This document shows, in pieces, positions 19,880 to 43,492 of a stretch of 64,000 bases of DNA. The stretch is from Paramacrobiotus metropolitanus (taxonomy: Eukaryota > Tardigrada > Eutardigrada > Parachela > Macrobiotidae). Where the stretch lies: positions 124,001-188,000 of the forward strand of contig NW_026570292.1 in the NCBI RefSeq assembly GCF_019649055.1. The letters run 5' to 3'. Numbering within the stretch: the stretch's first letter is position 1; every line of letters starts with the position of its first letter. Below the pieces are notes generated by a model. The model saw only the letters and a program-made list of their open reading frames with translations, ran no database searches and had not been told where the DNA came from. A program made the translations under genes and the position numbers.

Positions 19880-20483
19880 TGACGTGTGGAGGAGTACGTA
19901 CGAGGGATTCCACCGTACATCCACTGACTGTCCGCCTTCACCTGCAAGTACAACACCGGATATCAGCACCGATCAGTTCTGTGATTCGTTACATTTATGG
20001 CTTAGCGGTGTATCTGATGTTTTTACTTCTGAGTCTATTTAAGTCTGAGATTCTACTAATATCGACAGAGATTGGATTTCAGTCTTGGATTTCTGATCTG
20101 ACGACTACTTGCTTTTAACTTTCCTTGTGTTGTGCATATGATTGTGTGTTAGCGGAGTAAAGCATCTTCTGTGATTATCGACGTTCGTAATTTATATCGG
20201 ATTATAGCGTGGTAAACACGGTATGCTCGTACTTCGTTCGACCCGCATATGTGACGACCGGAAGTTAGGAGTATTCTTCAGCACAATCGCTTAGGGATTC
20301 CTGATCTTCGTGTTCCTGAACCTACCAGATTCCATACATTTCCTGTGATCCGCTGTAACAATTGAGACAAGAGTTGCGATACTCACTGAGCAAGGCAGGG
20401 ATAGTGGATACGACGATCCCGTCCGGAGAGTTGTTAGCTAATCGTGTACTTCTTTGTACCATTGGCAACCTCATAACACGACA
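19880..20483 (+). repeat. 5' long terminal repeat
   Basis: 604 bp, starting TGACGTGTGG and ending AACACGACA. It matches 42885-43488 at all but two positions by visual comparison. It contains a TATTTAAG box-like sequence near 20035, a CCGGAAGT (ETS-type) site at 20258-20265 and an open frame of about 80 codons encoding a hydrophobic segment (see the ORF that runs into the 3' LTR). Confidence 0.95.
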
Positions 20484-20499
20484 TGGCGCCCACCGATGG
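20484..20499 (+). promoter_or_regulatory. Primer-binding site
   Basis: TGGCGCCCACCGATGG starts directly after the LTR's terminal CA. The opening TGGCGCC is complementary to a tRNA 3' end of the GGCGCCA type, as used by many gypsy elements and retroviruses. The rest does not let me name the tRNA with confidence. Confidence 0.85.
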
Positions 20500-20964
20500 T
20501 CTTTAATTTCCCGATGTTACAGCGAAATTAAGGAAGGAATCTGGATGGTAGTTAATTGATAAAAAATTGCGGTGGTCCGTAGAAAGGTGTCGAACCGAAA
20601 GGTACACCGAAGGAGGTCAGCGTTCCACATCTGGCCTAGAGTTTTATTGGGTGAGCTTCCTCCCCGGGCTGAGCTTCCTCGCCCAATTGGCTGAGCTTCC
20701 TCGCCATTAATTAATTGATAAATTCGGACCGTAAATTCAGCAGTAAAATTGGTTGAAACCTTAAAGGTCAGCCAGGGAAAAGTGGTTGGAAATAAAGTGA
20801 AAGTGGGTAATTTCCGGGTTATCTGCGCAAAGCGATGACCGGAGAAAATAAAGCATAAAGTGTAGTGTCAGTGCGCCTGGCCTACATTCAGATCGTAGCT
20901 GCAGATTACATCAGAGCTAAGGTTCTAGTTGGCAAGAAGAGGTTCTGAAAAAACAGAATCCAGT
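20500..20964 (+). other. Untranslated leader with three copies of a short repeat
   Basis: Leader between the primer-binding site and the first gag ATG. The sequence TGAGCTTCCTCSCC occurs three times, at 20652, 20670 and 20692. Such leaders commonly hold packaging signals; that role here is a guess. The open frame extends to a TTG at 20929, but the first ATG is at 20965. Confidence 0.5.
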
Positions 20965-23900
20965 ATGAAATTACCGAATTTTGATGACTCACGTCCTGAA
21001 AGGATTCAACAATGGGTAATTGCAGTAGACCAGTGTCGTACCACAAACGGATGGAATGATAGACAAACCTGTCAAGCAATTTCCGGTGCATTGAAGGGTG
21101 CTTCATACATCTGGTTCGCTGAATTGTATAAGGATAACCCAACAAGAACATGGAACAGATTCTTTAAACAGGCGTTAATCAAGCATTTCAACGGTGCATC
21201 ATCGAAGGCGGAAATGAGGCGGGCAATGAATAACAGGCATTGCCTAAAGGAGGAATCAGTCCGTACGTATATGGACAGTTTTATGATGTGGTTCAAGGAA
21301 CTACGAATTGAGGAAGAGGAACAAGTGGAAGTCCTGTTGGAAGGCCTGAAAAAACATAGACCGGGTTGGTATGCAACTTTATACCGCAATAGGCCGGAAA
21401 CTTACGAAGAGTTCGAAACGCAGGTGCAGGATTGCGAGAAGTTGCAGAAAATTCTGGATGAAGAGAAAAAAGGAGGCGAGCCGCGACAACGTGTAGTTAT
21501 TCAAGAGCCGAGAAGTGCAGGCAGTATTAATGATGCAGAAAACCGTACCAATCGTGGCGGATTTCAGTCTCGCGGAAGTTATTTCCAGCCGCGTGGAGGC
21601 CGCGGGAATTACTTTGGTAATAGAGGCGGGTACTCAAGACAGTATTTTGGTTCAGGAAATTATCAGAATGTCCAAACGGGAAGTCAGCCGTCACAGCCGC
21701 CGCCGGCGCAGGCGACTTCCGTTCCGAATGTATCCCAGCCGCAGGTGCAGTATATTCCGTACCCAGTATACCAGCAGCCTCAGGCGCAGGAAATGCAACC
21801 GGTACAGTTTACTCAGATTTGTCCACCGCCTCCTACGCCCGTAACTCAGCCGCATATGCAGATGCTGGTTGTCCCTATGCAACCTGTGCAGCAGCCGCTT
21901 CCGCCCTTGCAAAATTTCCAGCAGTTTAGGCCAAATGCCCCTGTAAATAATAATAATCAGGGTACGAATCAAGGACAATTTAGGTCGAATAATTATGGAA
22001 ATAATTATCGTGGGAATAACTCCCAGCGCGGTGGGTACAATAATAATTATCGGCAGCAGCAGCCGAATAATAATCAAAATTATCGGCAGAATTCTCAGCA
22101 ACCGAATCAGCAGGAACAGCCATTTGATGAGCGAAACATCTGCAAGGAAGCATGGCGAAATAATCAAGGAAATGAAATTTGTTACCGGTGTCATGGGATG
22201 CATTCAGTGGCATCATGTCTGAATCCCTTAGCAGTGCCTCGACTATACCGTCCCACACAAGAAATCCTAAACAGATGTAATAATCCTCAGATAAACATTA
22301 TGGAATTAGAAATGGTCGGTACTTCAGTAGCGAATGGCACTCCGGCAAGTTGCAATACGTTGGAAGTTGTAGATCCAAATCAGTATCCAGTAACGGATGC
22401 GGTATGCTTGAAGCCGACTTTAGATGCACAGGCATGGTATTCAGTAATTGACGTGAATTATCAAAAGGTAAAAACAATGATTGATACCGGCTCTAGTATT
22501 TCGGTGATGTCGCATCAAATGGCGAAAGATTTGGATTTGTATATTCATCAATGTCCCGATCACATTCAAGGGAGAGTAGTCCATACGGCTTATCAAGGAA
22601 GACAGTTAATCGAGCCCATGTGTGCGATCATAACCATCCACGAGTTCGGGATGGCGTTTGAGCATGCAGTATTGGTCAGTTCAACGTTTGAACGAGACCA
22701 CATTGTATTGGGACTGGACTTCTTAGCAACGAAACCTTTTATTCTGGATATGAACACCATGACGTGGAGATTGTCCCGCCGACGCCCGAATTCTCCGACA
22801 TGGTTTCCAAGAAAGATGCACTCAATGTCCGATATCATAAGAGCTCATCACTTTGATCCAATGATTCCACCTGGAGTAAAACCATCGCCGTCAATACCGG
22901 CACTAGTGTTAACAGAAAGAATCGGTGTCGCGAAAGAAGCACAATTTGTACCGTACGAGTCAGCCCACCTGATCTTGACGAAAGCACCAGTGGAAATGTG
23001 CATGATGCACATCCAACGAGCAAAAGAGGAGTGGCCTCGGCCTCCAAAACCAGTAGTTCAAGCGAATGCGAAGTCTCTGAATTCGGGTCAGGTGCCACTA
23101 GGATCGAATCAGAGGAATCGGGCATTTCTGGAGGAAGCAGTAAAAGAGGCAGTCAAAGGTTATATAAAACCCAAGCACGAAGCGATTATCAAGCAGGAGA
23201 ATGGTGTAATAAAACATGATATCGTGAATCCATCGATAAATCCAGTTCCTAGTCAAGTTCGTGGGGGAGGCGCGACGCCGCAGCAGAATGTCCAGAAGGA
23301 GGAAATACCCCACAGAGATGTGAAGCCGTTACCGGCAGTACAAAACCCTGTAAAAAATTCCATAATTAAATCGAGCCGATGTTTTGCAATTGATGCTAGT
23401 CAAGTTTGTGGGGGTGCCGGTAAGCCGATTAAATCGCTTACTACGCTGGCTGCGTTACTACATATTTTACCGGATGAACAGTACACATTTGCGGGCTTCC
23501 CTAAAAAGACGAATAAAACAGCGGAATGTGTAGTGTTTGGCAATAAAGTGCTGAACGTGGTACCGATTGATTTCAATCACCAGCATGTAGACGAAACACA
23601 TGAGCGGGAATATCCCTCCAAACTAGCCAGAAATCCAGAACTGATGCGCTGGATGATGCCGCCAACCCGACCGCAAGACAGAGATAGATTTCCAACAGAA
23701 AAACAATACAGAGATGTAGAATTCTGGAAAACCGAGCAGCAAAATTGTATGGATAGTCGAATGTGGCTCCGATATTTGAACAGACCCGAATACGCGAATA
23801 CTAACTATCTAAAATACGAACTGAACAGAATGATCACCTTTGAAGGATTGATCTGTCGAATTCCAGATCATGACGGGCAGTGTCCACGTATTTACGTACC

Positions 23901-26900
23901 GTTCCAGTGGCGTGAGAAGTTAATCGCTAAATTCCACGAAAATCTGATCCACAAACAGGTGTATGGTCCAAGAGAAAAACTTTATCCGTACTTGGTGAAA
24001 ATGTTCTACTGGCCGGATATAATTATACAAATTGAAGAATATGAGAAGGAATGTGAAGAATGTCGTCATTCTTTAAATTACCGGCAGCATTATAATTCAA
24101 CACATCGAAATGAATTGTTGGCAACGTCAGACAAGAAGAAAGTAACTTTTTCACCGGAAAATCCAGCTCCCGCAGGAGATTTCGAAAATGGCACATTTGT
24201 TCCGGCAGAAGGTATGCCGTTGTCCGACATAGGTCCAGTTCCTGTCTCCTACGAAGACAGAATGGCGGAGAAGCAAAAGCTGACTCATGAACAGGCGCTA
24301 AGTAAATTACCGTTCGGTCTCGATGTGTCTAATATCCGGCTGTCACCCAAAATGGCACCAAATGACTCAGCAGTCTATGTCGGAGTACCACGGGATCCGA
24401 CGGTGGCATATCATGGGCAGCGGAAAACAGAACATTTACCGAGTTGGCAAAACCCGGAGTTATTAGCGACACAAGCCGCTATGGCTGATGTGGACGTGAG
24501 CGAACAACACCGTATCTGGAACGAGATCCAACAAAACAACAGTGCCAGCATGATACCAGCAGAGGTTGCCGGTGTGCAAGATGTAGAAAAACTGGGAATT
24601 GACCAATACGAATACAAACGGAAGCGAAAATCGGGCGCGAGTCGCCGTTTAAAACAGCAACTAATTCAATTAGCCTTGGAGCGTGAAAAATTAAGTGAAC
24701 TCACCCAGCAATGCATCCAGCAATTGGAAGAAAATCAGAGGGTAGCAATGGCGCAAGAAATCCAAAGCTGTTTAGCACTGGCGACAAAATCACAGGATAC
24801 ACGGGACGCTGACGACATCCCAGCAGATGTGTATACGAAGGACGGTATTCACACGGTGTCCCGAGAATCAGAAGTCCAGAGCGAGGCGGGTGTTGTCAAC
24901 CAGGCTGATAAAGCAGAGGATGACATCTATCGAGTCGAACCAGAACCGGTGCCCATTGAATTTTTTAAAATGGAACTATTTCCCATGTCCCCGGTAATAA
25001 TTCAGCCGCGTTCCCAGGGAATTATCCGAGTTAGAACTGATATGCCGCCAGAAAAACTACAAAAATTTCAAGAGAAAAATTTGCAGAAGTTACCGTACTT
25101 ATACGAAGGCAAAATTCCAGCAAATAATAAAAATGTTCTTTTGTTTGATGGTGTGGTATCACTTAATGAAAAAGCAAACACACGAGTTTGTGTTATGAAC
25201 GCTTCGGACAAACATATGGTACTAAATAGAGAAACGAACCTTGGAAGTATTGTGGTGGTTGAGGAAGTGTATCAAGTTGACACACCGGGATATTGGGAGA
25301 ATTACCATGATGAATTCTGCAAAATTCCGCGTGACGAAAGCGGCACGCCGATAGCGGAAAGAATGTGTGATTGCTTGGCAATGCAGGCACAGGATGTGCA
25401 GTCCAATACGGGAATTGACCCTGAAACAGAAGAAACATTTGCAAAAATAAAAGTGGGAGAAATTTGTCCAGACAAGGAGGCGTTAAAACGGATTTTTTAT
25501 GAAGCGAAATCAGTTTTACCAACACAGGCTCGTCCAGTCGGATGTTGTACTATATATGAACACTCAGTTGATACAGGAAACAGTGCCCCAGTGCGCACTC
25601 CACCGTACCGTACGTCGTTCGAAGACAGGAAATGGCTTCAAGCCAAAACGGCAGAAATGGTCAGAGACGGAATTATAGAACCTACTAACTCGGCATGGGG
25701 AAGCCCAATATGCATTGTTAAAAAGAAAGATAAATCGAGGCGTCTTACCGTAGACTTCCGGAAGCTTAATGAACGATTGTTGGGAAGCTCTTATCCTTTA
25801 CCACGGGTCGACGATATCCTAAATGCACTCGATAAAGCAACTGTGTTTTCGAAAATAGATCTGAAATCGGGATTTTGGCAGATTAAGATTAAGCCAGAAG
25901 ACAGAGCGAAAACGACAATGGTGGGAGAGGAATTTACCTTCCAATACAGAGTACTTCCATTTGGGATGAAGGACGCGCCGTCCGCGTTCCAGCGTGCAAT
26001 GGATTTAACACTAGCAAACATGAAATGGCGCAATGTGTTGGTGTTCATAGACGACATAATCGTTTTCTCTAAAAATCTGGCAGATCATATGCGGGACTTA
26101 CGGGAATTATTCCTTCGGCTCCAGGAGTGTGGCTGGACCATAAGTCCTGAAAAAACGGAACTATTTGTCAATTCAATTACATTTTTGGGACATACGGTAG
26201 ACCAACACGGTATAAGCACAGATCCAGAAAAGATTAGAGCGGTCCAGGAATTTGGCCCTATAAAAGACAAAAAAGATATTCTAAGATTCTTAGGAATGGT
26301 GGGATATTACCGCCAGTTCATTAAGAACTTTCAAGAGAAAGCGGATCCGTTACAACGCTTGATTCCTAAAAAAGTGGACTTTGAATGGGGACCAGAACAA
26401 GCGGATGCGGTGCAGGAACTTAAAGACGCACTTACCTCGGCACCAGTGTTGGCTCGGTACGACCCAGAGGCAAGGTCGAGAGTTGTTGTTGACGCAAGTA
26501 CAATCGCGGTGGGAGCAGTCCTTATGCAGTGCCCGAAAGGAAAGGAACAGGAAGGTTCGGTAAATTGGAAACCTGTTGCATTTTTGAGTAGAAAATTAAC
26601 GGAAACGCAGAAGAAAATTTATTTCCCTACTGAATTGGAGGCGTACGCCTTAATTTGTGCACTAAAGAAATGGCGACATTACCTCTCGGACTACGAATTT
26701 GAAGTCCAAACGGACCATCAAGCACTTGTATTCCTTCACAATATGAGAGACGCGGCAGGTCGTCTGGGAAGATGGGCGTTATTTGTGCAACAATTCAACA
26801 CTAAGCCGGTGCACATACCTGGAAAAGAGAACGTAATCGCAGACGCATCGAGCCGTAATCCCGGAGACCAGCCAGAGCCAGAGTCAGACGACTCGGACAT

Positions 26901-29355
26901 TGAATTTGACTATCGGCAAACGAATCCGATGATTGGCGATGCAGCCATGGTCCAATATTGCCAGGAAGTACGAGAACGCGAGTACCCGGAATTATATATG
27001 AATATGATGGAGATGGCCAAGGAGCTGAAGGTGATCGATGAGAAAGACGAAGAGACATTTGACGCGGATAAAATGCAGAAACTAGTCCAAGATGAAAAGG
27101 CGGCCTTTTGGGCGGAAGAGCAGTCAAAGGATGCTCGTATCCTGCGTTGGAAACTATTGTTAGAGCATAAAAATGAAAAGAAATCGGAACATGAAAAAAT
27201 ACATTTACCCAAATTCACTGTACGGCAGGGAGTTGTCTACTACAAATTCGAATTAAATCGGAAGATTTTTTACTGTATGTACGTGCCGATACATCGGAGG
27301 TTGGAATTCTTGCGGGAGAATCATGACTCTCCGCTCGCAGCACACTTGGGCGTTTTGGCAACCTATAAAAGAATGTATAAGTATTTTTATTGGCCTAAAA
27401 TGCTCGACTCAGTTAGGGCTTACTGCGCCTCGTGTCCGGCCTGTTTGGCACAGAACAACCCGGCAACGGCACCGGCCGGATCCCTGCAAACAAATCCTAC
27501 TGTACCTCCGAGGATGGTCTGGGCAATCGATGTAGCTCCAGCGCTTCCTCCAACCGAATCTGGAAAAAAGCACATAATTATTGCAGTAGATTACGGGAGT
27601 AAATATGTACTAGCTGAGGCAGTCGAAAGAAACGACGCCGCTACTTTAGCTCTCTTCTTTTACCAGCGGATTATGACTGTCTTCGGTATGCCGGCGCATA
27701 TCACGTCAGACAGAGGCAGTAATTTTATGTCTGAAATGTTCCGTGAGCTCCTAGCTCTGTCGGGCGTCGCACACGCGCCGACGGCGTCAGGTCACCAGCA
27801 GGGAAATGGCCTTGTGGAGAAACGAGTTGGTGAGATTAAGCGCGCATTGGCGAAGTATACTAACGACAAGCAAAGCGATTGGGATACATTTCTTCCAGCG
27901 CTAACGGCTGCATTTAATGCTAAAATTGTTGAGCGAACGCAACACTCACCGTTCTTTTTAATGTACGGACAGGAAATGCGCCTTCCAGTTGCTAATTTTA
28001 TTCCGATGAACGAGGATTATGTCGTTCCAGCCCACGTATTTGTGCAGCAAATGCAAAGGAGTTTGCGCGAAGCCCTGGAAATAGCCAATGTCGAGGAGTT
28101 CAAGAATAAAATCAAGGATAAAGTTCGTTATGATACGAATACGCGAGATACAACTTACCAGATTGGCGATCATGTGTTGGTGTATGTACTGCACAGGAAG
28201 TTAGGTAAAAACCCGAGTCTTATGCCGCGCTGGACGGCAGGATGGGAGATTGTCAGGCCGAGTGGCCCTGTTCATTACGTAGTTAAATCTAATAAGAAGG
28301 GAAATGTCAAAATGGACACGGTTCATGTTTCCCGTTTAAAGCCTTACTGTTTCCGGGATATCGATACCATACTTGCCGATGAGAGGCCGCCGAAAGTTCT
28401 CTCTTGCTTGGAGAAGGAGTGCCCAGAGGAATTACAAGAGGCGCCCGCGCCGCCCCCAGTACTACCGACACCAGACATGGCAACATCCAAGTTGGATAAG
28501 GAATATTCGGATTACCTGGAAAGACAACAAATGGCAGAAATTGTTCGCACACGTTCAGGACGAATTAGTAAACCGGTGACGAAATTTGTGGTTGAACACA
28601 GTAAAAAGAAACGAGATCATTCAGGACAGAAAATAGTACCGGATACTTCAGCAGAAGAAATTGTACCTGTTCTGAATGTATCCCAGCTGGTGGAACAGGC
28701 GTCAGCAGATCGAAATTCACCGAAACGACTTAAACCGGAGATGAAAACAGAAAACGGTGTAGTTACACAGAAACCGGCGGAAATTACGAGCCAATTAGTG
28801 GCAGTGGATGCAGGAAAGGCACCGGATGTGAAAATTAAAGAAGAAATTTTTTGCGGAATATTTGAAGTAACCTCGGTTAATAGAATTACGACAGAAACGA
28901 GTATCAAACCTGTAGAAAAATTTGTACCTGATTGGGCAAAGCCAGCAGAAACGTTCTGGCCGGTCGGTGCCATAACAGACGACCTTCTGGAACGCCCGGA
29001 GTTTTGGCGTTATCGGCAGTCCGAGTGTACAGACGTTCAGATGTGGAAAGCGTTGGCAGATGGAGTTATCACGGATGAATCCGATTATGTAAAAGAACAC
29101 CTTCCTAAAATCAGAAACAGCAATGGATATATTTGTCATGAGGACTCTTCGCCGGATAAAATTAAACGCATTTTAATACCGTATCAGTGGCGTACGATCC
29201 TTGCGGAATCAGTACACAGACGCCTAAAACATAAATACTTCAGTAATACGCGAATAATGGACTATATTTTGTACGAGTTACGCTTTTATTGGCCGGAAAT
29301 TGAGGAAGACTTGGAAAAACAAGATGTAGAATGTGTATTATGCTGGACACGTTAA
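20965..29355 (+). CDS. gag-pol: Gag-Pol polyprotein with three H2C2 zinc modules
   Basis: A single 2,796-aa frame without a gag/pol shift. Order by residue: retrotransposon gag domain (1-165), RGG-rich (about 180-215), Q/N/P-rich (215-385), variant zinc knuckle CX2CX3HX4C (about 406), aspartic protease (DTGS at 506, HIVLGLDFL later), first H2C2 module (about 919-1035), Lys/Glu coiled coil (about 1222-1275), reverse transcriptase (about 1560-1770, active site FIDD at 1694), RNase H (VVVDAS, TELEA, TDHQAL, IADASS), integrase H2C2 (about 2046-2161), catalytic D2189, D2249 and E2285 with exact D-35-E spacing, a C-terminal VHVSRLKPY region, and a third H2C2 module at the very end (about 2679-2796). 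All catalytic residues are present, so the element may be active. Polyproteins of this superfamily are usually about 1,200-2,000 aa. The start at the ATG at 20965 is preferred over the TTG at 20929. Confidence 0.95.
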   Translation: MKLPNFDDSRPERIQQWVIAVDQCRTTNGWNDRQTCQAISGALKGASYIWFAELYKDNPTRTWNRFFKQALIKHFNGASSKAEMRRAMNNRHCLKEESVRTYMDSFMMWFKELRIEEEEQVEVLLEGLKKHRPGWYATLYRNRPETYEEFETQVQDCEKLQKILDEEKKGGEPRQRVVIQEPRSAGSINDAENRTNRGGFQSRGSYFQPRGGRGNYFGNRGGYSRQYFGSGNYQNVQTGSQPSQPPPAQATSVPNVSQPQVQYIPYPVYQQPQAQEMQPVQFTQICPPPPTPVTQPHMQMLVVPMQPVQQPLPPLQNFQQFRPNAPVNNNNQGTNQGQFRSNNYGNNYRGNNSQRGGYNNNYRQQQPNNNQNYRQNSQQPNQQEQPFDERNICKEAWRNNQGNEICYRCHGMHSVASCLNPLAVPRLYRPTQEILNRCNNPQINIMELEMVGTSVANGTPASCNTLEVVDPNQYPVTDAVCLKPTLDAQAWYSVIDVNYQKVKTMIDTGSSISVMSHQMAKDLDLYIHQCPDHIQGRVVHTAYQGRQLIEPMCAIITIHEFGMAFEHAVLVSSTFERDHIVLGLDFLATKPFILDMNTMTWRLSRRRPNSPTWFPRKMHSMSDIIRAHHFDPMIPPGVKPSPSIPALVLTERIGVAKEAQFVPYESAHLILTKAPVEMCMMHIQRAKEEWPRPPKPVVQANAKSLNSGQVPLGSNQRNRAFLEEAVKEAVKGYIKPKHEAIIKQENGVIKHDIVNPSINPVPSQVRGGGATPQQNVQKEEIPHRDVKPLPAVQNPVKNSIIKSSRCFAIDASQVCGGAGKPIKSLTTLAALLHILPDEQYTFAGFPKKTNKTAECVVFGNKVLNVVPIDFNHQHVDETHEREYPSKLARNPELMRWMMPPTRPQDRDRFPTEKQYRDVEFWKTEQQNCMDSRMWLRYLNRPEYANTNYLKYELNRMITFEGLICRIPDHDGQCPRIYVPFQWREKLIAKFHENLIHKQVYGPREKLYPYLVKMFYWPDIIIQIEEYEKECEECRHSLNYRQHYNSTHRNELLATSDKKKVTFSPENPAPAGDFENGTFVPAEGMPLSDIGPVPVSYEDRMAEKQKLTHEQALSKLPFGLDVSNIRLSPKMAPNDSAVYVGVPRDPTVAYHGQRKTEHLPSWQNPELLATQAAMADVDVSEQHRIWNEIQQNNSASMIPAEVAGVQDVEKLGIDQYEYKRKRKSGASRRLKQQLIQLALEREKLSELTQQCIQQLEENQRVAMAQEIQSCLALATKSQDTRDADDIPADVYTKDGIHTVSRESEVQSEAGVVNQADKAEDDIYRVEPEPVPIEFFKMELFPMSPVIIQPRSQGIIRVRTDMPPEKLQKFQEKNLQKLPYLYEGKIPANNKNVLLFDGVVSLNEKANTRVCVMNASDKHMVLNRETNLGSIVVVEEVYQVDTPGYWENYHDEFCKIPRDESGTPIAERMCDCLAMQAQDVQSNTGIDPETEETFAKIKVGEICPDKEALKRIFYEAKSVLPTQARPVGCCTIYEHSVDTGNSAPVRTPPYRTSFEDRKWLQAKTAEMVRDGIIEPTNSAWGSPICIVKKKDKSRRLTVDFRKLNERLLGSSYPLPRVDDILNALDKATVFSKIDLKSGFWQIKIKPEDRAKTTMVGEEFTFQYRVLPFGMKDAPSAFQRAMDLTLANMKWRNVLVFIDDIIVFSKNLADHMRDLRELFLRLQECGWTISPEKTELFVNSITFLGHTVDQHGISTDPEKIRAVQEFGPIKDKKDILRFLGMVGYYRQFIKNFQEKADPLQRLIPKKVDFEWGPEQADAVQELKDALTSAPVLARYDPEARSRVVVDASTIAVGAVLMQCPKGKEQEGSVNWKPVAFLSRKLTETQKKIYFPTELEAYALICALKKWRHYLSDYEFEVQTDHQALVFLHNMRDAAGRLGRWALFVQQFNTKPVHIPGKENVIADASSRNPGDQPEPESDDSDIEFDYRQTNPMIGDAAMVQYCQEVREREYPELYMNMMEMAKELKVIDEKDEETFDADKMQKLVQDEKAAFWAEEQSKDARILRWKLLLEHKNEKKSEHEKIHLPKFTVRQGVVYYKFELNRKIFYCMYVPIHRRLEFLRENHDSPLAAHLGVLATYKRMYKYFYWPKMLDSVRAYCASCPACLAQNNPATAPAGSLQTNPTVPPRMVWAIDVAPALPPTESGKKHIIIAVDYGSKYVLAEAVERNDAATLALFFYQRIMTVFGMPAHITSDRGSNFMSEMFRELLALSGVAHAPTASGHQQGNGLVEKRVGEIKRALAKYTNDKQSDWDTFLPALTAAFNAKIVERTQHSPFFLMYGQEMRLPVANFIPMNEDYVVPAHVFVQQMQRSLREALEIANVEEFKNKIKDKVRYDTNTRDTTYQIGDHVLVYVLHRKLGKNPSLMPRWTAGWEIVRPSGPVHYVVKSNKKGNVKMDTVHVSRLKPYCFRDIDTILADERPPKVLSCLEKECPEELQEAPAPPPVLPTPDMATSKLDKEYSDYLERQQMAEIVRTRSGRISKPVTKFVVEHSKKKRDHSGQKIVPDTSAEEIVPVLNVSQLVEQASADRNSPKRLKPEMKTENGVVTQKPAEITSQLVAVDAGKAPDVKIKEEIFCGIFEVTSVNRITTETSIKPVEKFVPDWAKPAETFWPVGAITDDLLERPEFWRYRQSECTDVQMWKALADGVITDESDYVKEHLPKIRNSNGYICHEDSSPDKIKRILIPYQWRTILAESVHRRLKHKYFSNTRIMDYILYELRFYWPEIEEDLEKQDVECVLCWTR

Positions 29356-33572: not shown

Positions 33573-34011
33573 AGGGTTGCTGAATGTTTTCTCGGATTCT
33601 TTTGGTTCATTCTTTTTCTCAGTTTATGAGTTTCGGAAACTTTATTTGCTCCAATTTCCTATGCTCATTATTTCAGTCCCGTTAGTAGAAGAAGTGCATT
33701 TGCCTGCACTTGTATTTGACGCGTTACCGCGTGTATAGATTTTATTAGATTTTATTAGAATTTTATCGATAGTTTTTCGGACTCACTTGCGTTGTCTGGT
33801 TGCCGATCGATTGTAATAAAAGCAATAGTTGTCGATCTTGAACCATAATAATAAAAACTGATTGATCTGAAATGTGGCATAACATGATATGACCCACCGG
33901 AAGTTGTAACATCCAATATCGCATAATATCGCATAACACGACATGCTGAACCGCCGTTATATATTTTCAAATGCAAGGATTGAAATCGGGAATAAAGCCA
34001 GTAATAACTGC
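33573..34011 (+). other. Spacer preceding the tRNA-like array
   Basis: Non-coding. It contains an ETS-like CCGGAAGT at 33897-33904 and a 14-bp copy of the LTR's 3' end (cataacacgacatg) at 33932-33945. Confidence 0.5.
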
Positions 34012-34860
34012 GTAGTGCACGGGTGAGCGATGGCATTTCTTCACGCTCAGGTCTAGAGTTCTATACCCAGTGAAATAAACATTTACGATTTAGAATTTAG
34101 TTTTTTACCGAAAATGTGGAATTAACATTAAAATAACATTTTCCGTGATTGCACAATGAGTTTAAAATGCGAAATTACTGCAGTAGTGTAGGGGTCGCTA
34201 CTGTTGGATAATGCTTCGAGATGCCAGGTTCGAGACCCACAATAAAAACTTTTGTAAATGGCTCATTCATTTTTTGCCATTCCTACGTTTTAAATATGGC
34301 GGATACGATTTTGGCGATAGCTAGATTAATTTTAAACGCGAATTCAGGTAGTGGTCTAGTGGCTAACAGATCCTCAACAACGGTTTAAGGTTGCTAGTTC
34401 AATCCCAGCGATGGCAGTGATTTTGTAAATAAATTTAATTTTTAATCCTTTTTATGGTTCCATTATGTAGAATCACAGTTTTAGAGATCATTGGTTAAAA
34501 CTTAAAATCAGTAATGCTGTAGTGGCCGAGCGATATGTCACTCATCTCCGATAGCCGGGTCAGCGAGTTCAAGTGCCTATATGGTTGTCAATTTTGCAAA
34601 TTAACTACCTAGTAACGGCCTGAAAAATATATTTTTCAACTCCTTGCAAACAAATTTAATTTTTAGACCAGGAGAATAAATGTAATGGTGAAGGGAGCAG
34701 ATTTTAACCCCAAGTGACAATTTATACAATTCCGGCACTATCTGTAACAGTATAAATCACTAAAACCGTAGTGGCCGAGTTGTGTACGGATCCTTCCTTG
34801 TTGTTGCCAGAATCTAGAATCGAATCCCACCAAGGGCAAATATTTTGTAAATAAAGTGCT
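34012..34860 (+). repeat. Five-unit tandem array of tRNA-gene-like repeats
   Basis: Units begin with GTAGTG at 34012, 34183, 34348, 34519 and 34768 (spacings 171, 165, 171, 249). Each opens with an A-box-like sequence (for example tggtctagtgg, tggccgag). A B-box-like sequence follows 44-49 bp later: gagttctataccc, ggttcgagaccc, tagttcaatccc, gagttcaagtgcc, gaatcgaatccc. Units 2-5 then carry TTTTGTAAAT or TTTTGCAAAT 67-75 bp from the unit start. This geometry matches tRNA genes or tRNA-derived SINEs. The arms do not pair well enough for functional tRNAs; the T arm of unit 3 pairs best. Confidence 0.75.
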
Positions 34861-35153
34861 GTAAATTAAAGTGAAAAATATCTTTTTATTGGTCTGTCTT
34901 AAATTTTAATCAAGATGAGAAAATCTGAATATCATGGATTGAATTTTACGAGAATATTGCGAAAAGAATTTACATAATAGTGGGATTTTAACACACTTGC
35001 AGTGGAAACGGCATTTTTAACTAAAATGAGTACATGGTTTAATTGTCGAAGATTGCTACCAACGAGAACATCAACAATATTATTCAGCAAATTTAGATGA
35101 GATTAGTCTACGAAGAAAAACAGAGCGCAGGAAGTTTCTCAAATTAATTAAAA
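34861..35153. other. Spacer downstream of antisense ORF5
   Basis: AT-rich and non-coding. It separates the tRNA-like array from the stop codon of the antisense gene. Confidence 0.4.
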
Positions 35154-36395
35154 TCAACGGGAAGATTTTGCCGATTTCCTTGGATTTCCTATAGCGGATT
35201 GATCATTGACGCGACGCTTCAGACTGGCGACGCTGGCGTCTGCTTCCTTTAAATTATGACGCAGTGAATCAGCGATGGCGTTGAGAGTCTGCCCGGCAGA
35301 AACAACTTCGGTGCGAATGATATCAGCAGAGGTGGGCAGCACAGTGTGAGCACGAGCAGGACGACGAGCTGGAAGGAATTCCTTCTCGGGCGCAGCATAA
35401 CGGAAGTTCACAGAAACAGGAACTTCTCCACTGGATGAACTGGTTGACGGTCCAGGATCGTCCATAGCTCCCGAAGGGACAGCAGGAACACGCACATTCC
35501 CCAATTCAGATGCGGCATTTACAATAGCAAAACACATATCGTTCACTGTGAGATCGCCAAAACCATAGCACAAATACGGGCAATCGGCCTCGTGCGGCTG
35601 CATCCGGATTGCTATAAAATCAGAAAATAAAAGTGGAGGAATACGGTATATTGGCAGCCTTGTTAAAATTAAAAATAAAAATAGAAGCTTACTGAGAGTG
35701 CGTCCAAATTCGGTCGAGAGTTCTCCAGCGCGTACCCATTTCATTCGCGCATCGACGCAGGGATGAATAAACAGCGTTCCATTCCCAGTTCGTATGCGTC
35801 CCGAACGAAGCAGTGCCAGCAGTGCCTTTCGGAATTCAATAGGAAAATGTGGGATTTCCACAGCGTAAGTGTTATGCAGCCACACGAGTAATTCCTGGCG
35901 AGTAACTCCGCATCCAGCTTCAAGAAGTACACCACAGATGGCGGCACGGAGCTTGTAGGTCTGGTCGATAATCAGAACGGGGCGACGGCTCCGAAGACGC
36001 TCAGCTTCCCCCAGGATGAATCGTCCATCCACATGTAGTTGTTTCAAAAGAAATCCAGGGGAAATACTTTCCTCCAAGTACAGTTTTACACGAGCGGAAG
36101 TGAAATCGTCATGCAAAGTGCAGATAAACTCCTGCATATCGGTAACATCCACTAGTTCGCTCTTCATAAAGGCATCTAGGAGGCGAACTTGTACACAAGC
36201 CTTCATTGCCTCCTGACGACGAGCCTTCAAAGTTTCCATGGGCTCCAGCGGTTTCTTGAGCATCGCGGCAACGTCGTTGCAAAGACGCCGAGTTCCGCGC
36301 ATATCGCCACGAGAGGGAGCACTCAGGCAGTACATGGCGCCTACACAGTGCAAAATATTAATTAACTGAAAATGCTGATAATTATAAACACTTAC
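35154..36395 (-). CDS. Accessory ORF5, antisense spliced gene
   Basis: This gene runs opposite to the element. A 5' leader intron (36341-36395, GTAAGT...TGTAG, 55 bp) is followed by an ATG at 36335. Coding exons are 35693-36335 and 35154-35611, separated by an 81-bp intron (35612-35692, GTAAGC...TTATAG). The intron is a multiple of three and stop-free, so the unspliced frame also stays open. The spliced product is 366 aa. Residues 100-190 alternate hydrophobic helices and basic turns (LIIDQTYKLRAAICGVLLEA, ELLVWLHNTYAVEI, RKALLALLRSGRIRTGNGTL) and look like a winged-helix-type fold, which is a guess. A Ser-rich linker and a basic helical tail follow. I do not recognise the family. Introns in antisense orientation survive retrotransposition because the genomic RNA is not cut there. 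Confidence 0.7.
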   Translation of the reverse strand, partial: VSVYNYQHFQLINILHCVGAMYCLSAPSRGDMRGTRRLCNDVAAMLKKPLEPMETLKARRQEAMKACVQVRLLDAFMKSELVDVTDMQEFICTLHDDFTSARVKLYLEESISPGFLLKQLHVDGRFILGEAERLRSRRPVLIIDQTYKLRAAICGVLLEAGCGVTRQELLVWLHNTYAVEIPHFPIEFRKALLALLRSGRIRTGNGTLFIHPCVDARMKWVRAGELSTEFGRTLSKLLFLFLILTRLPIYRIPPLLFSDFIAIRMQPHEADCPYLCYGFGDLTVNDMCFAIVNAASELGNVRVPAVPSGAMDDPGPSTSSSSGEVPVSVNFRYAAPEKEFLPARRPARAHTVLPTSADIIRTEVVSAGQTLNAIADSLRHNLKEADASVASLKRRVNDQSAIGNPRKSAKSSR

Positions 36396-36936: not shown

Positions 36937-38844
36937 ATGGGTTCTCTGCATAAAAGCTTGACGGGAAGCATGTCGCGGCGATTTTCCCCTGAAATACCGG
37001 AGCCAGAAGATGCAGTACCTTGGCGACCCACACCGCCTACTCGCCAAATGCGTGAGCGTGGCATTCTGGAAAGGCCAAATGCAAACCGGCATCCGATGGG
37101 TTATCAGCCTGGATCGGCGGCAGATCGTGCGGAGCACAGAGTGACGCGAGCACAGGCCCAAGCAGCGGATTTTGCGGGAGAATCCAGCGGATCGAGCAGC
37201 ACCGAAGAACAACCGATCCCACCTAACAGTTCAGACCGTGCAGATGTTGTTCGCGGGAACCAGCGCCGTGGCGCATTTGCAAGCACGCCAGAACAGACAC
37301 GTTGGCGAGGACAGCCTTCCTCGTCGTCCAGCAATAGCAGCACACCACCTGGAGGCAGCAAACCTCGGATTCGCTTGGTCGAATCGTCGGACTTGTCAGA
37401 GGGAGATAGCGGCACCAGTGGACATGCTGCAGGTAGATGCCGTATTTTATGCTTTTTACCTTAAACTATCTTATGACTCGTGGTGAATTGCTGAATGTTA
37501 AACCTATTTTTAAGATTTAAATTAAAACCCTATTTATCGAATTATAACACGACATGGCACACGATGGTTACTTAAAGGAAGGAGATCTTAATTAATTTTA
37601 ACCATGTGGCAGGAAACGGAAATGGTGTTGTACGCGTTTCACGCCCCGGGTTTGCTCGACGAACTGGTGTGCCGGAAAGGCCTGTTCAGCGCAGCAAGCG
37701 GCCACAGTTGAATGCGGTAGGCCTCGGACGAGAAGACACGGAGACTGAGCCTTCGTCGGTCGACTCAGTAACACTGAAGTTTCCTGATTTGGCCGTGGCT
37801 GACGATAGGGATGATATGGCCGTCGCCCAAGCCGTTGATCCAAGTGTGGATGTCGCCGGTGAGCATTATCATCGCCTTTGGTTATCGAATGATGGCAAGT
37901 TAATCCACCGTTATGACTTATTCAAATGGACTCAGAAGTTACCAAAAGAAATTGCCTATGAACTCAAAAGACAGTACCTATATTTACACCCAGCTTTTTC
38001 TGTCCTGTTTAAAGCGCTGAACCAGCATCAAGCGGAGGTTAAAGCTGCGGCTGAGAATGCTGGTCAGGACGGCGAAGATTCGGGCGACGACGCAGACGCC
38101 GAGGATGGTGAAGAAGCGGACGGTGATCAGAACGGCAGTGATACCAGTGGTTCGTTGGATACACAAACGGATGGCGATTCTCCCACTGATCACTCCACTA
38201 GTTCCGAAACCAGTGAGGAAACCAAAGCCGGATGGGAGCATCTTCAACGCATTAAAGCAGAACGCCGGGTTCGCTTCAGCAGTCTAATCGGATCTATTAA
38301 GCGCAAGTTCGATGAAATAGACGAAGAGGCCGGAAGTAGTGCGGAGAAACCGGAGGCTGTCAGCATTTTCCAGCCCCTATCTACAAATACTAAGCCAATG
38401 GACAAGAAAGATGATGATTCTCATTCGGACAGCGAAAACGAGCGTGAAATGCGGATTTTCGAAGATTCGCTTATTATTTATTCGGACCAAGAAGATGTAC
38501 CGATGCCCGATTTTGAGCACCCGCATATCTTGCCGAAAAAGTCTGCTGCAGAAGTCGCAATGGAGGAAGCGGATGTTAGCGACTTAGTGGATTTTGCTGA
38601 TGAACAGCCAGAGGAAGAAGAACAGTCTCAGCTGTGCGTCGATGACGACGAGCAAGCGGAAAATGTTCCAGCAGTAGCGGCAGTGGTGCAGATGCAAGTT
38701 GTCGTCGAACAGCAGGAAGAAGAGCCACGCTCGGAGGAGTTGCAAGTTGGACAGCTGACACCAGTCCGCAGCCCCATTTTGGATAATCGTGGTATTTTTC
38801 CTCTCAACCCATTTTTGCCATCGATTTTTATCAAATCGGCATAG
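36937..38844 (+). CDS. Accessory ORF6, spliced acidic disordered protein
   Basis: Exons 36937-37432 and 37613-38844 join across a 180-bp intron (GTAGAT...GTGGCAG). The junction is exact in frame (phase 1, GGA split 1+2), giving 575 aa. Exon 1 is Pro/Arg/Ser-rich (RRFSPEIPEPEDAVPWRP). Exon 2 has a folded-looking block (EHYHRLWLSNDGKLIHRYDL, ELKRQYLYLHPAFSVLFKAL) and then a long acidic, low-complexity region (GQDGEDSGDDADAEDGEEAD) with a basic helix (RVRFSSLIGSIKRKFDEIDE). Such acidic tails occur in nuclear and chromatin-associated proteins; no specific function can be inferred. The intron contains a degenerate copy of the LTR end plus primer-binding site. An alternative start is at 36970. Confidence 0.65.
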
Positions 38845-39383
38845 TTAACCTTCATCTTTCGTATGAGCTTGTTGTTACGATTGCCTTTATAGCGAGATTA
38901 ATTAGCGATTTATTGCTATATAATATTTCATCTCTATTTTTGTAACCTTAATTTGACCGTGAATTTTTGCGCCTTTTGTACGCCCGGAATAGCTAACTGC
39001 AGTCTTTTGTTGCCGCGGTGTGCCTGGTAAAATTTTTAATCTGATGATTTGATCATGCGTGGAGAAGCCGATGCTGTGACGTAATCTATCTAACTCCTAT
39101 TAAAAGAGCTTTAACCTGTGATGGTGATTGGTTGGCTCGAATGAGGTTTGAAAGTGGGGAAATTTCCCAACACACCGGCACGCTTGATCAGCCAGCAGGC
39201 ACAGGTATTTAAACAGTTAAAATTAGCACAGACTGCACAGTGCAGTTCCTCATTTTAAGTTGCACCTTTTTCAGTCACGCCGCACAGGCCGTGTATTAGT
39301 TCCTTGTTATTTCGTTATTTTGTGTGGAACTTTTACTTCGCTTTATTGCTGGCTAAGGTCACTTGTTCTCGTAATGATTTGCT
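38845..39383 (+). other. Non-coding spacer inside the element
   Basis: AT-rich, no ORF. The stretch just before ORF7 is pyrimidine-rich and may hold a promoter or leader. Confidence 0.35.
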
Positions 39384-40196
39384 ATGCCGCCAATTGATCC
39401 GAACCGAGCTTTTGAAAAGCTCGTTGACGCCGTATTTCAGTCATCGCAGACGGCGCAACAACAGCAACAGTATGGCTGGAGAGGAGGATACCGTGGTGGC
39501 CGTGCGCGCGGCGGATTTCGCCCGTATCGCCCTATGTACCATCGAAGTCACGGAAGCAACAACATCCGTCGTGGGCCATCTGATTGGATCCGTGGAGGCA
39601 GACCCTTGGGGGAACAGGGTCCTGCTCCGAATGCTGCTGGACCAGATGATCCGGCTCAACGAGTGGAGAATTCCGGCGTCCCTATGGAGGTCGACGTCGC
39701 GAACCCTGCGCAGGCGCCTCCACCAGCTGAAGATCCGAGTCGCGGAGTTGTGGGCCAGATTGTCGCCGCTCCTCCTCATGCTGATCAACATTTATCAGGC
39801 TCGTCTATCCTGATTGTCGGAAGCGTGCCAGCCAGCGTAGCAGCTTTACCACAGCAGCCCGGGCAAGCAGTACCAGCAGTCAGTGCACTTCCGGGATTGC
39901 CACCTGGAGTCGATGCCTTCGCAGTACCGGTGAATACGAATCGTGACCGTTCAGCTTCGCGAGACCGAATCGGGAAACCCTCGCATGATTTTGTGCCTAA
40001 TTTCGTTGCTGACCAAGAGTTACTCCAGCAGAAGCAGCGAGAGTCGGAGATGGAAAAGCGACGTAAGATGGCGGAAGAAGTCAGTCGCCGTCTGGATGCC
40101 GTGTCAGCCTCGTCGAGTGCGGGACAGACAGGATTATTTTCCTTGGCACCAAGCAGCAGCAAGTGCTATGGTAAATTCTCATTTATTTATTGTTAA
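39384..40196 (+). CDS. Accessory ORF7, RGG-rich protein
   Basis: 270 aa if unspliced. An N-terminal helix (DPNRAFEKLVDAVFQSSQTA) leads to an RGG/RG-rich stretch (WRGGYRGGRARGGFRPYRP), a long Pro/Ala/Val-rich linker, and a Lys/Arg/Glu helix (QKQRESEMEKRRKMAEEVSR). RGG regions bind RNA, and the gag region of this element has a similar RGG block, so a nucleocapsid-like or RNA-packaging role is conceivable. A good splice donor (ATG|GTAAAT at 40170/40171) near the end suggests a further exon that I cannot place. Another ORF (39304-39813) overlaps in a different frame and is judged a shadow. Confidence 0.6.
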   Translation: MPPIDPNRAFEKLVDAVFQSSQTAQQQQQYGWRGGYRGGRARGGFRPYRPMYHRSHGSNNIRRGPSDWIRGGRPLGEQGPAPNAAGPDDPAQRVENSGVPMEVDVANPAQAPPPAEDPSRGVVGQIVAAPPHADQHLSGSSILIVGSVPASVAALPQQPGQAVPAVSALPGLPPGVDAFAVPVNTNRDRSASRDRIGKPSHDFVPNFVADQELLQQKQRESEMEKRRKMAEEVSRRLDAVSASSSAGQTGLFSLAPSSSKCYGKFSFIYC

Positions 40197-40778: not shown

Positions 40779-41393
40779 ATGGCGAATAAATCGCAGCGCA
40801 ACAACACGTTTTTCCAACGTTACGCTTCGGGTCGAGAGGAAGAAATGACTTCTCGTTTGGCTGCAGCTTCTGTGGAATCCGTCAATAAGATTCCTGTCAT
40901 GATTGGATATGCGCAGCGCCATGGGTCCTCGATCGCCACTGAGTTTGGATCGCCGCGTAGCTATCGTACTGAATCTATTTCGTCGTTGTTTTCTATGCCT
41001 GACGAAGAACGAGAACCGAAGGAAGCACCGAATCAGCAAATGGTTCGCGCTGCTCAGCTGATTAATATGGCACTGGACATGATCGATACTGTTCCTCTGG
41101 ATCAACGAACGATTGGAAAGGATGTTATTTGCGACGGTATGACTATTCAGCGTTGGGAAAAGGTTGCCCCGCTGCTGTACCGAGACACTGTGGAGCAGTT
41201 GAATGGAGGCGCCTCGCAGATGGCTGAACCACATTCTGCGCCTACGGCATCGGCCAACACGGGAGGATTTGGCTTCTACAGTTTCCCGTTGTCACCACTG
41301 AAGGAGAACTCGTCGGAAGTGCGCTCCAGCAGTTCGAACAATAAGCCTTGTAAGTTGTGCATCCAAGAGAACAAGGAGCCCAACACGGTTTGA
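40779..41393 (+). CDS. Accessory ORF8, unknown protein
   Basis: 204 aa. The N-terminus is basic (MANKSQRNNTFFQRYASGRE). The middle has a helical region (QQMVRAAQLINMALDMIDTV, GMTIQRWEKVAPLLYRDTVE), then a Ser/Asn-rich tail. The C-terminal CKLC...ENKEPNTV may be an artefact, because a strong donor-like sequence (CCTT|GTAAGT) occurs at 41350 and the true end could lie in a later exon. I do not recognise it. The frame is intact in the sense orientation. Confidence 0.6.
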   Translation: MANKSQRNNTFFQRYASGREEEMTSRLAAASVESVNKIPVMIGYAQRHGSSIATEFGSPRSYRTESISSLFSMPDEEREPKEAPNQQMVRAAQLINMALDMIDTVPLDQRTIGKDVICDGMTIQRWEKVAPLLYRDTVEQLNGGASQMAEPHSAPTASANTGGFGFYSFPLSPLKENSSEVRSSSSNNKPCKLCIQENKEPNTV

Positions 41394-42354: not shown

Positions 42355-42637
42355 TTAGAATTATGGCGGAATTTTTATGTATCATATCTGATTTCTCATA
42401 TCTTGCACTTCATTTTGCATTTTGTACATTTTTGTAGCATTTTTTGCGAAATTTGTCAGGATATATTTGTACAGATCTAATAATTAAAATCACCGTACAA
42501 ATATCCTCTAATTCTCTGCAATTAAAAGATCTGGAAGAACAGTATAAGTAATTCAGTTTAAAAACTATTATTAAAGCCTAGTGCCTATACAGAACACAGA
42601 AAATTCATCGCACAAAAGGCACAGTAGTACATAGTAG

Positions 42638-43123
42638 ATTCTAACACGACTGGATCCTGGACCTCCTCCTCGCCAATCCCATGGACTTCCGGATGCCAAC
42701 GACGCTAGGATCCACACATTAACATCTCACACGGATCAGGCGTACAGTCACTGGGCATCGGATGGACATGCGTGGATTGTGGCGAAGGACGGGAGATGGA
42801 TCAGGGATGGAGCGCTCACAATCTCACGGGATGTTGCGGATGGACTTGTTTGCGTTGGCAGGAGCCAAGAAACGTTTGTGGGGGTGACGTGTGGAGGAGT
42901 ACGTACGAGGGATTCCACCGTACATCCACTGACTGTCCGCCTTCACCTGCAAGTACAACACCGGATATCAGCACCGATCAGTTCTGTGATTCGTTACATT
43001 TATGGCTTAGCGGTGTATCTGATGTTTTTACTTCTGAGTCTATTTAAGTCTGAGATTCTACTAATATCGACAGAGATTGGATTTCAGTCTTGGATTTCTG
43101 ATCTGACGACTACTTGCTTTTAA
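42638..43123 (+). CDS. ORF10, membrane-segment ORF running into the 3' LTR
   Basis: A stop-free frame of 161 codons starts after a TAG at 42635 and ends with TAA at 43121-43123, 239 bp inside the 3' LTR. There is no early ATG, so expression would need splicing from an upstream exon or a non-AUG start. The first 80 residues look like a compact domain (SHWASDGHAWIVAKDGRWIR, GALTISRDVADGLVCVGRS) with a weak immunoglobulin-like pattern. The LTR part adds a strong transmembrane segment (IYGLAVYLMFLLLSLFK). An envelope-like or membrane accessory protein is one reading; chance openness is another. The 5' LTR contains only the C-terminal part. Confidence 0.4.
   Translation: MLTRLDPGPPPRQSHGLPDANDARIHTLTSHTDQAYSHWASDGHAWIVAKDGRWIRDGALTISRDVADGLVCVGRSQETFVGVTCGGVRTRDSTVHPLTVRLHLQVQHRISAPISSVIRYIYGLAVYLMFLLLSLFKSEILLISTEIGFQSWISDLTTTCF
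42878..42884 (+). promoter_or_regulatory. Candidate polypurine tract
   Basis: gtggggg ends immediately before the TG of the 3' LTR, where plus-strand priming should occur. It is short and G-rich compared with typical polypurine tracts. Confidence 0.45.
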
Positions 43124-43488
43124 CTTTCCTTGTGTTGTGCATATGATTGTGTGTTAGCGGAGTAAAGCATCTTCTGTGATTATCGACGTTCGTAATTTAT
43201 ATCGGATTATAGCGTGGTAAACACGGTATGCTCGTACTTCGTTCGACCCGCATATGTGACGACCGGAACTTAGGAGTATTCTTCAGCACAATCGCTTAGG
43301 GATTCCTGATCTTCGTGTTCCTGAACCTACCAGATTCCATACATTTCCTGTGATCCGCTGTAACAATTGAGACAAGAGTTGCGATACTCACTGAGCAAGG
43401 CAGGGATAGTGGTTACGACGATCCCGTCCGGAGAGTTGTTAGCTAATCGTGTACTTCTTTGTACCATTGGCAACCTCATAACACGACA
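42885..43488 (+). repeat. 3' long terminal repeat
   Basis: 604 bp, identical to the 5' LTR except at 43269 (C for G) and 43413 (T for A). The change at 43269 destroys the CCGGAAGT site present in the 5' LTR. It is followed by GGAT, the target duplication. Confidence 0.95.
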
Positions 43489-43492
43489 GGAT

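Follow-up and report, generated by a model that had tools for sequence, protein, structure and literature searches.

A giant Ty3/gypsy-type retroelement of the tardigrade Paramacrobiotus metropolitanus with about ten conserved accessory genes between pol and its 3′ LTR

Results

Structure of the element

We analysed a stretch of 64,000 nucleotides from the tardigrade Paramacrobiotus metropolitanus (contig NW_026570292.1, positions 124,001 to 188,000; hereafter the window, in whose own coordinates all positions are given), which contains a long terminal repeat (LTR) retroelement of 23,609 bases that encodes, beside Gag-Pol, a large block of accessory genes. Its two LTRs are separated by 22.4 kb. 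The ends of the element and the domains of its Gag-Pol, including the reverse transcriptase (RT), are as follows:

19876-19879: target-site duplication GGAT, left copy
19880-20483, plus strand: 5′ LTR, 604 bp
20484-20501, plus strand: primer binding site, the first 12 bases of which match tRNA-Lys(CTT)
20965-29355, plus strand: gag-pol, a single open frame (2796 aa) that encodes protease, RT, RNase H and integrase
23896-24069, plus strand: H2C2 zinc-binding module before the RT, the first of three (Pfam E 5.7e-5, 23.6 bits, below the cut-off of 25.5)
25717-26199, plus strand: reverse transcriptase domain (Pfam)
27283-27792, plus strand: integrase, canonical H2C2 and core domain (Pfam)
29167-29343, plus strand: third module, H2C2-like, at the C-terminal end of Gag-Pol, placed by BLASTP similarity to the first
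42640-42884, plus strand: block preceding the 3′ LTR, conserved by similarity among copies
42885-43488, plus strand: 3′ LTR, 604 bp
43489-43492: target-site duplication GGAT, right copy

The LTR sequence opens with TGACGTGTGG and closes with ACACGACA (TG...CA ends), and its two copies differ by 2 substitutions and 0 gaps over 604 bp. An earlier, sequence-only reading of the window had placed these LTRs with their two differences, the GGAT duplication and the primer site exactly where we find them, and had called the insertion recent, a view that our analysis supports. The primer tRNA was found by searching the genome with a tRNA-Lys pattern: the 12 leading bases of the primer site correspond to CCA together with the adjoining 3′ end of the host's tRNA-Lys(CTT) gene, and agreement over 18 bases is 15/18. 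A pattern that combined T-loop and 3′ end had 0 matches in the genome, and a 13-mer search gave 12 genome places, with 0 tRNAs among the 8 that were fetched. At the other end of the element, the last 129 bases of the block before the 3′ LTR are 83-98% identical in 8 copies.

The domain order protease-RT-RNase H-integrase, derived from Pfam, is that of Ty3/gypsy LTR retrotransposons. The frame is open across its full length with a match to each of these four domains, where an intact gag-pol had been read earlier; the copy is not intact in all its parts, the accessory gene p4 being frameshifted. Public relatives of the RT are 34-45% identical among the 120 of 625 that were listed. The third H2C2-like module has no Pfam H2C2 match of its own, and it aligns with the first at 37% identity over 59 aa (BLASTP, E 4e-10 in a single comparison).

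Independent long copies in the genome

The genome searched was an assembly of 169.8 Mb in 533 contigs, in which the LTR gave 40 scored matches. Among these are nine LTR pairs that measure 23.3-26.8 kb end to end, the window included, and five further pairs of 7.4-8.4 kb; the search for other full-length copies that the sequence-only reading had proposed thus returned eight further LTR pairs lying 23-27 kb apart. Target duplications were read for the window copy (C72, GGAT) and for four other loci, namely C80 (TATG), C2 (CGCT), a more distant copy, C78 (TAAG), and a solo LTR on C14 (ACAG); three of the nine long pairs (C72, C80 and C2) are covered in this way. LTR pairs differ at 2/604 positions in C72, 0/604 in C80 and 1/604 in C2, and those of C78 are 99.3% identical. 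These copies are independent, recent insertions on separate contigs, and the long internal region is therefore not a mis-assembly, a possibility that the earlier reading had raised and that we tested within the assembly: the region recurs in copies on separate contigs.

A colinear accessory block under purifying selection

Between gag-pol and the 3′ LTR we recognise the following genes:

29669-29962, plus strand: p1, 97 aa, acidic
29996-30337, plus strand: p2, 113 aa
30829-31803, plus strand: p3, 324 aa
32866-33572 (open part 32991-33572), plus strand: p4, frameshifted near its start in the window copy
35154-36335, minus strand: m5, with exon 36335-35693, GT-AG intron 35692-35612 and exon 35611-35154
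36937-38844, plus strand: p6-p7, with exon 36937-37432, intron 37433-37612 and exon 37613-38844
39384-40196, plus strand: p8, with an RGG-rich N-terminus
39472-39813, plus strand: p8b, 113 aa, inside p8
40779-41393, plus strand: p9, 204 aa
41764-42354, plus strand: p10, 196 aa

Eight extra open reading frames (ORFs) had been counted before; we find ten conserved frames, of which p6 and p7 are exons of one gene, plus p8b, which overlaps p8. We searched the post-pol regions of the eight other copies with the window's frames: p2, p3, p4, m5, p6, p7, p8 and p9 are present in 8/8 (p2 only partially in C2), p1 in 7/8 and p10 in 6/8, and order and strands are identical across all eight. Even the spacing can be constant: p2 starts 37 nt past the last p1 codon in all 8 copies, window included, in which both were placed. 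In the other copies displayed, the p4 frame continues from an upstream ATG. Where they align, the frames are 58-97% identical to those of four near copies (lowest in p7) and 35-82% identical to those of four far ones. Chance ORFs are excluded because the block recurs colinearly in this way; the same colinearity confirms that the roughly 13 kb of accessory genes belong to the element, and the accessory ORFs, whose absence from other copies with the same LTRs would have told against this, are present there.

Ratios of nonsynonymous to synonymous divergence (dN/dS, NG86 method) point to purifying selection on the ten accessory frames: in 38/38 comparisons with the four nearest copies the ratio for each ORF is 0.03-0.32, the values against far copies being ones for which dS is often saturated. 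Control frames behave differently, in that 7/9 give dN/dS of 0.39-1.45 against near copies, with stops in 22/26 comparisons. The two low control frames both overlap p8: p_39472 (0.09-0.14, near copies) and m_39441 (0.04-0.70). It was the low ratio of p_39472 that led to the recognition of p8b.

That the accessory genes lack recognisable homologues, as had been claimed, holds as far as it was tested. Pfam gave no significant match for the ten frames and p8b, the weak ones being p3 (E 0.075) and p8b (E 0.16). For m5 and p8, the two accessory proteins that were searched in this way, a word-based method of limited sensitivity, applied to 5.8 billion proteins, yielded no relative among the candidates that it scored.

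A spliced antisense gene and a sense intron

The 81-nt GT-AG intron of m5 has a GT...AG counterpart at the same position in 8/8 other copies (the acceptor of C11, GAG, is poor), and its length and sequence vary. The m5 protein match breaks at the intron in 5/8 copies and reads through it in C80, C38 and C11, with stops in C80 and C11. This predicted intron would survive retrotransposition because the genomic RNA is the complement of the m5 transcript. A candidate intron in the 5′ untranslated region of m5 (36395-36341), with GT-AG in some near copies only, is tentative. As to what m5 encodes, its profile gave a best E of 0.12 against PDB sequences (SRP9, not significant), no m5 was confirmed in viral contigs, and neither the window m5 frame nor 7 exon-1 proteins matched the TRP28 domain. 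A linker-histone match, found in 1/7 members only (E 0.055), was not used.

The second putative intron lies in the sense orientation, in p6-p7. The p6 frame terminates at a donor that is conserved in 8/9 copies (altered in C94), and the acceptor is conserved in 5/5 copies displayed there, the window included and the far copies lying outside that display. Codons between this acceptor and the p7 ATG have a dN/dS of 0.04-0.17 in the 6/8 copies with measurable dS, among them 4/4 near copies, and there is one stop in this interval in C38. From the presence of this intron we infer that the RNA that is copied would be the unspliced form.

The p6-p7 intron also contains a sequence that resembles the LTR end plus primer site:

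37544-37570, plus strand: LTR-end and primer-site-like sequence

Motifs of this type occur at 33 places with at most 3 mismatches in 14, versus 5.2 per shuffle set; many of the places are orthologous and some are within coding sequence. They recur at two places in particular: before p7 (7/9 family copies) and in an array of RNA polymerase III (Pol III)-type units described below (7 family copies plus C78). Besides the window, the copies concerned are C2, C80, C94, C38, C11, C248, C9 and C78.

p8, its promoter-like boxes and the overlapping frame p8b

A putative promoter precedes p8:

39127-39215, plus strand: inverted CCAAT (ATTGG at 39127) and TATA-like box (39206)

The inverted CCAAT is found in 10/10 aligned copies, C78 included, and the TATA-like box in 9/10 (altered in C94). 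CCGGAA/TTCCGG motifs number 14 in the 6.6 kb between genes of the window versus 5 in 7.0 kb of genes; across the copies their density is 1.67 per kb outside the located frames and 1.05 inside them, with 0.52 per kb outside the element. As a promoter signal this density is suggestive only. A candidate splice donor at the end of p8 was dropped, the alignment showing that the frame merely ends nearby.

p8b is a +1 frame ORF of 113-126 aa in 10/10 copies; its start lies at nucleotide 85-88 of p8 in eight of them and at nucleotide 43 in the other two. By itself the open length is unremarkable, being reached by 11-30% of synonymous shuffles; the case for p8b rests instead on conservation of its start and length and on an identity above that of the p8 frame. 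Over the same stretch, in eight family copies, p8b is 96-99% identical versus 88-96% for p8 in near copies, and 64-69% versus 46-55% in far ones. In C78 the p8b frame aligns over 109 residues (37%) and the p8 stretch over 44 (59%).

We also examined hydropathy maxima over 19 residues. In the window these are 1.68 for p8, 1.43 for p8b and at most 1.34 for the other ten pieces, which do not cover the first codons of p4. Values for p8 range from 1.16 to 1.71 in nine copies; those for p8b range from 1.38 to 1.73 in the eight family copies read (1.73 in C11) and reach 2.12 in C78; the p8b row of C248 caught a different frame and does not count among them. There may thus be a small membrane-associated protein among the accessory products. 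No Pfam match resembling an envelope was found in Gag-Pol or the accessory frames.

A Pol III-type array between convergent genes

The non-coding stretch between the convergent genes p4 and m5 is occupied by a row of tRNA-like units:

34178-34846, plus strand: Pol III-type array of tRNA-like units, each with A box, B box and TTTT
34178-34253, 34346-34424 and 34766-34846, plus strand: Pol III-type units located by box scan
near 34005-34070 and 34515-34600: weaker Pol III-type units, seen by eye only

In the p4-m5 intervals of nine copies there are 29 units in the sense orientation and 0 antisense, against a mean of 0.5 and a maximum of 3 in shuffles. Their geometry is narrow: the B box follows the A box by 44-46 nt, and TTTT lies 72-77 nt from the start. 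A scan with other settings of 165 kb from 11 copies gave 19 sense and 0 antisense matches versus a shuffle mean of 3.7 and maximum of 7; 16 of the 19 fall in the p4-m5 interval, 2 in the equivalent part of C78 and 1 within a coding sequence, with 0 in C12, a relative from a deeper RT group. The bodies of the units differ between copy groups, and the boxes and their spacing stay.

The window array is 93% identical to that of C80 and 92% to that of C2, even though dS in the two genes that flank it, p4 and m5, is 0.28-0.38; the array is therefore constrained. Searching the genome with array DNA matched five elements, near copies only and the window included; five candidates had passed the first look, at which short diverged short interspersed nuclear elements (SINEs) could escape.

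The wider family

We take the genome matches to p8 (93) and to the RT (99, from 97 candidates scored) as lower bounds. In 52 of the 70 first-listed p8 matches an RT lies on the same strand 8.9-19.8 kb upstream (median 12.5 kb). In 62 of these 70 the region upstream of p8 holds m5 in the opposite orientation (at 2.0-3.2 kb in 61 of them); m5 is on the same strand in 1, and there is none in 7. The more distant copy C78, with p8 about 50% identical and 23.4 kb between outer LTR ends, has p2, m5, p7 and p8 in the parts that were read.

In an RT group at 69-72% identity, the m5 profile aligns with the antisense post-pol gene of C12 (hhalign probability 94, E 1.2e-7, a single comparison), and 3/13 copies listed from the group have an m5 match about 10 kb from the RT on the opposite strand. 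Since relatives of m5 occur in this deeper RT group, the antisense gene probably predates the family that bears p8. Further lineages are represented by RT groups at 53-74% identity, mostly with no listed p8 downstream; of these, C12 alone was partly read for size.

Synonymous divergence jumps between neighbouring genes of one copy pair: between C72 and C80 dS is 0.04 in p8 and 0.58 in p3, and for C72 against C80 and C2 it is about 0.04-0.05 in p8 and 0.16-0.6 in most other genes. Such unevenness suggests recombination among copies.

We also noted a 7.4-kb element with similar LTRs (G000:C138:286700-293300) that resembles the giant in its leader and 3′ block (5′ leader 71.5% over 439 nt, 3′ block 77% over 243 nt). 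Its products include a protein that resembles Gag (Pfam score slightly below the cut-off) and a long one showing weak matches of coiled-coil type and an H2C2 module, and within the 6.6 kb read there is no RT or integrase match; it is probably a non-autonomous satellite that borrows the giant's Pol. At another locus (G000:C2:1108339-1111941) a second LTR and primer site stand 3 kb upstream of the C2 copy, with an identical left flank, CATACGCT; this duplicated flank is either a local duplication or an unresolved haplotype.

Neighbouring sequence

Upstream of the element in the window, frames 15749-16834 and 17825-18616 adjoin and are alike by eye; the first has a weak match to the chemosensory receptor family 7tm_7 (E 3.1e-5, below the cut-off) and the second has no Pfam match. 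Downstream, frame 45634-46002 on the minus strand contains a laminin EGF domain (Pfam, E 8.2e-13). The telomere repeat known from another tardigrade gave 0 matches.

Discussion

We consider it very likely that the window holds a recent insertion of a giant Ty3/gypsy-type element, whose lineage carries a fixed block of about ten accessory genes between pol and the 3′ LTR, with transcription units of their own. In the life cycle that we envisage, the LTR would drive a 23-kb RNA that encodes Gag-Pol; tRNA-Lys(CTT) would prime the copying of this RNA, and integration of the copy would produce a 4-bp duplication. Meanwhile the integrated copy would make accessory mRNAs from internal promoters, that of m5 being read off the other strand and spliced. 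For the sense intron in p6-p7 to persist, genomic RNA would have to avoid being spliced, as that of retroviruses does, and the Pol III-type array would separate two transcription units in cis. For the roles of the accessory proteins we offer guesses: RNA handling for RGG-rich p8, regulation for m5, and evasion of host silencing.

An ordinary gypsy element with captured host genes, or with a second element inserted into it, would make the 13 kb passenger DNA; Pfam recognises no enzyme domains in the accessory proteins, and most RT matches in the 53-74% groups have no listed p8 downstream, as such an origin might predict. We nevertheless judge it highly improbable: the block, its order and its strands are shared by 8 other copies and in part by C78, where p8 identity is about 50%, its frames are under purifying selection, target duplications are independent, and 62/70 p8 matches have an m5 upstream in the opposite orientation, so that no separate host copy stands out. 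Colinear copies, selection and independent duplications led us to reject host gene capture, mis-assembly and chance ORFs alike. It is also very unlikely, if slightly less so, that the element is an endogenous retrovirus that still infects cells, one of its accessory proteins being an unrecognised envelope. The gene-rich 3′ half, the introns and the retrovirus-like layout would suit such a virus, as would the hydrophobic stretches in p8 and p8b, which peak at 2.12 in the p8b of C78; against it, the window values of 1.43 for p8b and at most 1.34 for the other ten pieces are low, p8b has only 113 aa, and an envelope-like Pfam match is lacking.

As for the array, we predict that it most likely acts in cis, as a TFIIIC-bound boundary or roadblock between the p4 and m5 units; action through RNAs of about 80 nt is less likely. 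That the array works through such RNAs, as decoys or small-RNA precursors, is a possibility to be entertained with some doubt: the whole array, and not its boxes alone, is conserved between near copies, and every unit ends in TTTT, whereas the last unit is without a conserved fold over 9 copies and unit bodies vary by copy group while boxes and spacing persist. Chance matches, or fixed SINE insertions without a role, would accord with the silence of ARAGORN and Rfam (below) and are nonetheless very unlikely, given 29 units where 0.5 are expected, 0 antisense, constant spacing and place in 9/9 copies, and an array DNA search that matched only the five elements noted above.

Several observations weigh against our account of the element. 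What the DNA itself displays is structure, copies, frame selection, intron boundaries and promoter-like and Pol III-type motifs; active promoters, splicing and transcription by Pol III are predictions from the sequence. The first box scan, over pieces of the nine copies, gave 17 sense and 3 antisense matches, with 1 antisense match elsewhere in the window; ARAGORN and Rfam recognise no tRNA cloverleaf or other RNA in the array, and the missing fold of its last unit belongs here as well. Promoter-like boxes are clearly conserved for p8 only, with scattered motifs elsewhere. Among the control frames, the two over p8 have low dN/dS, one of them being p8b. Single genes have stops or shifts in some copies, p4 is frameshifted in the window, p10 was undetected in C38 and C9, and p1 was undetected in C2. 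The dN/dS of m5 counts overlapping pieces twice in C2 and runs through the intron in C80, C38 and C11. Finally, m5 is without a significant match in Pfam and PDB, as are the other accessory proteins in Pfam, and a structure model of m5 exon 1, built on the single window sequence (predicted local distance difference test, pLDDT, 39) was unusable.

If the fixed accessory block is as we describe, an LTR retroelement can be the stable carrier of about ten genes of its own, with replication at a length of 23-27 kb, versus a traditional limit near 10 kb for LTR elements (PMC6431247). This giant family has dozens of copies, one with identical LTRs. Antisense placement would be a simple route by which a retroelement retains introns, a sense intron would imply control over the splicing of the element's genome, and the tRNA-like array would be an uncommon link between retroelements and Pol III promoters. 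For P. metropolitanus, biological material and genome assemblies exist. A bolder reading, which we put forward tentatively and with more doubt than conviction, is that of a distinct class of animal retroelement with a DNA-virus-like genome between its LTRs: about ten orphan genes, some overlapping or antisense, internal RNA polymerase II promoters, retained introns, a conserved, partitioning Pol III-type array, non-autonomous satellites, and perhaps internal primer sites that aid copying of 23 kb.

To the sequence-only reading the present analysis adds an antisense spliced gene, a sense intron, p8b, promoter-like boxes, the Pol III-type array and the p4 frameshift.

Comparison with known elements

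Drosophila gypsy and the errantiviruses have the order protease-RT-RNase H-integrase, a tRNA-Lys type primer and a 4-bp duplication, all shared with the window element; they differ in their size of about 7 kb, with env as third gene, versus 23.6 kb here. Retroviral Pol III RNAs are known from foamy viruses.

Burro elements of planarians are giant and gypsy-like, with an internal region above 20 kb, a total above 30 kb, and one polyprotein of about 5,000 aa that joins Gag and Pol with env-like domains and with domains related to apoptosis and ubiquitin (PMC6431247). The window element shares with them the Ty3/gypsy type, an internal region of more than 20 kb, accessory coding capacity and an animal host; it differs in having a 2,796-aa Gag-Pol followed by separate genes, one antisense; its LTRs measure 604 bp, and it carries a Pol III-type array. 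Pfam (E ≤ 1) gave no Burro-type BIR, BCL2, MATH-TRAF or env-like domain in its Gag-Pol or accessory frames.

Among plant elements, Ogre is a giant Ty3/gypsy element with extra ORFs (PMC6431247), and Grande and Retand carry antisense accessory genes after pol, that of Grande having its own promoter; the pol-to-LTR region of Retand measures 2.9-6.6 kb and holds mainly antisense ORFs (TRP28 domain) and tandem repeats (PMC7264820, PMC11963269). A long pol-to-3′ LTR region and a conserved antisense accessory gene are shared with this group, whereas the window element differs in its 13.5 kb with about ten genes, in a spliced antisense gene without TRP28, in its Pol III-type array and in its animal host. 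Bdelloid rotifers provide other animal LTR elements with post-pol genes that are not always env: their ORF3 is of env, esterase or exonuclease type (PMC5408684), known domains in place of the roughly ten unknown genes described here.

Retroviruses offer partial parallels. Human T-cell leukaemia virus has an antisense gene, HBZ, in its provirus (PMC11963269), and bovine leukaemia virus has Pol III transcription within its provirus, of the type predicted from sequence for the window element; its products are hairpin precursors of microRNAs (PMC3911700), unlike a row of tRNA-like boxes between convergent genes of which the tested unit is without a conserved fold. A study of tardigrade repeats (PMC11071193) deals with two other species. 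Searches of open-access full text, outside which most subscription papers lie, listed no title, abstract opening or passage that describes this family, its gene number or its layout, or an LTR element in which a Pol III-type array accompanies a spliced antisense gene; Terminons also appear among the elements listed there.

The earlier suggestion of a new class of gene-rich retroelement therefore stands in one part only: the layout is unlike that of the known giants, while giant Ty3/gypsy elements with extra ORFs, and antisense accessory genes, were already known. What the window contains is a strongly divergent, gene-rich lineage of giant Ty3/gypsy-type elements, known in kind and distinct in layout.

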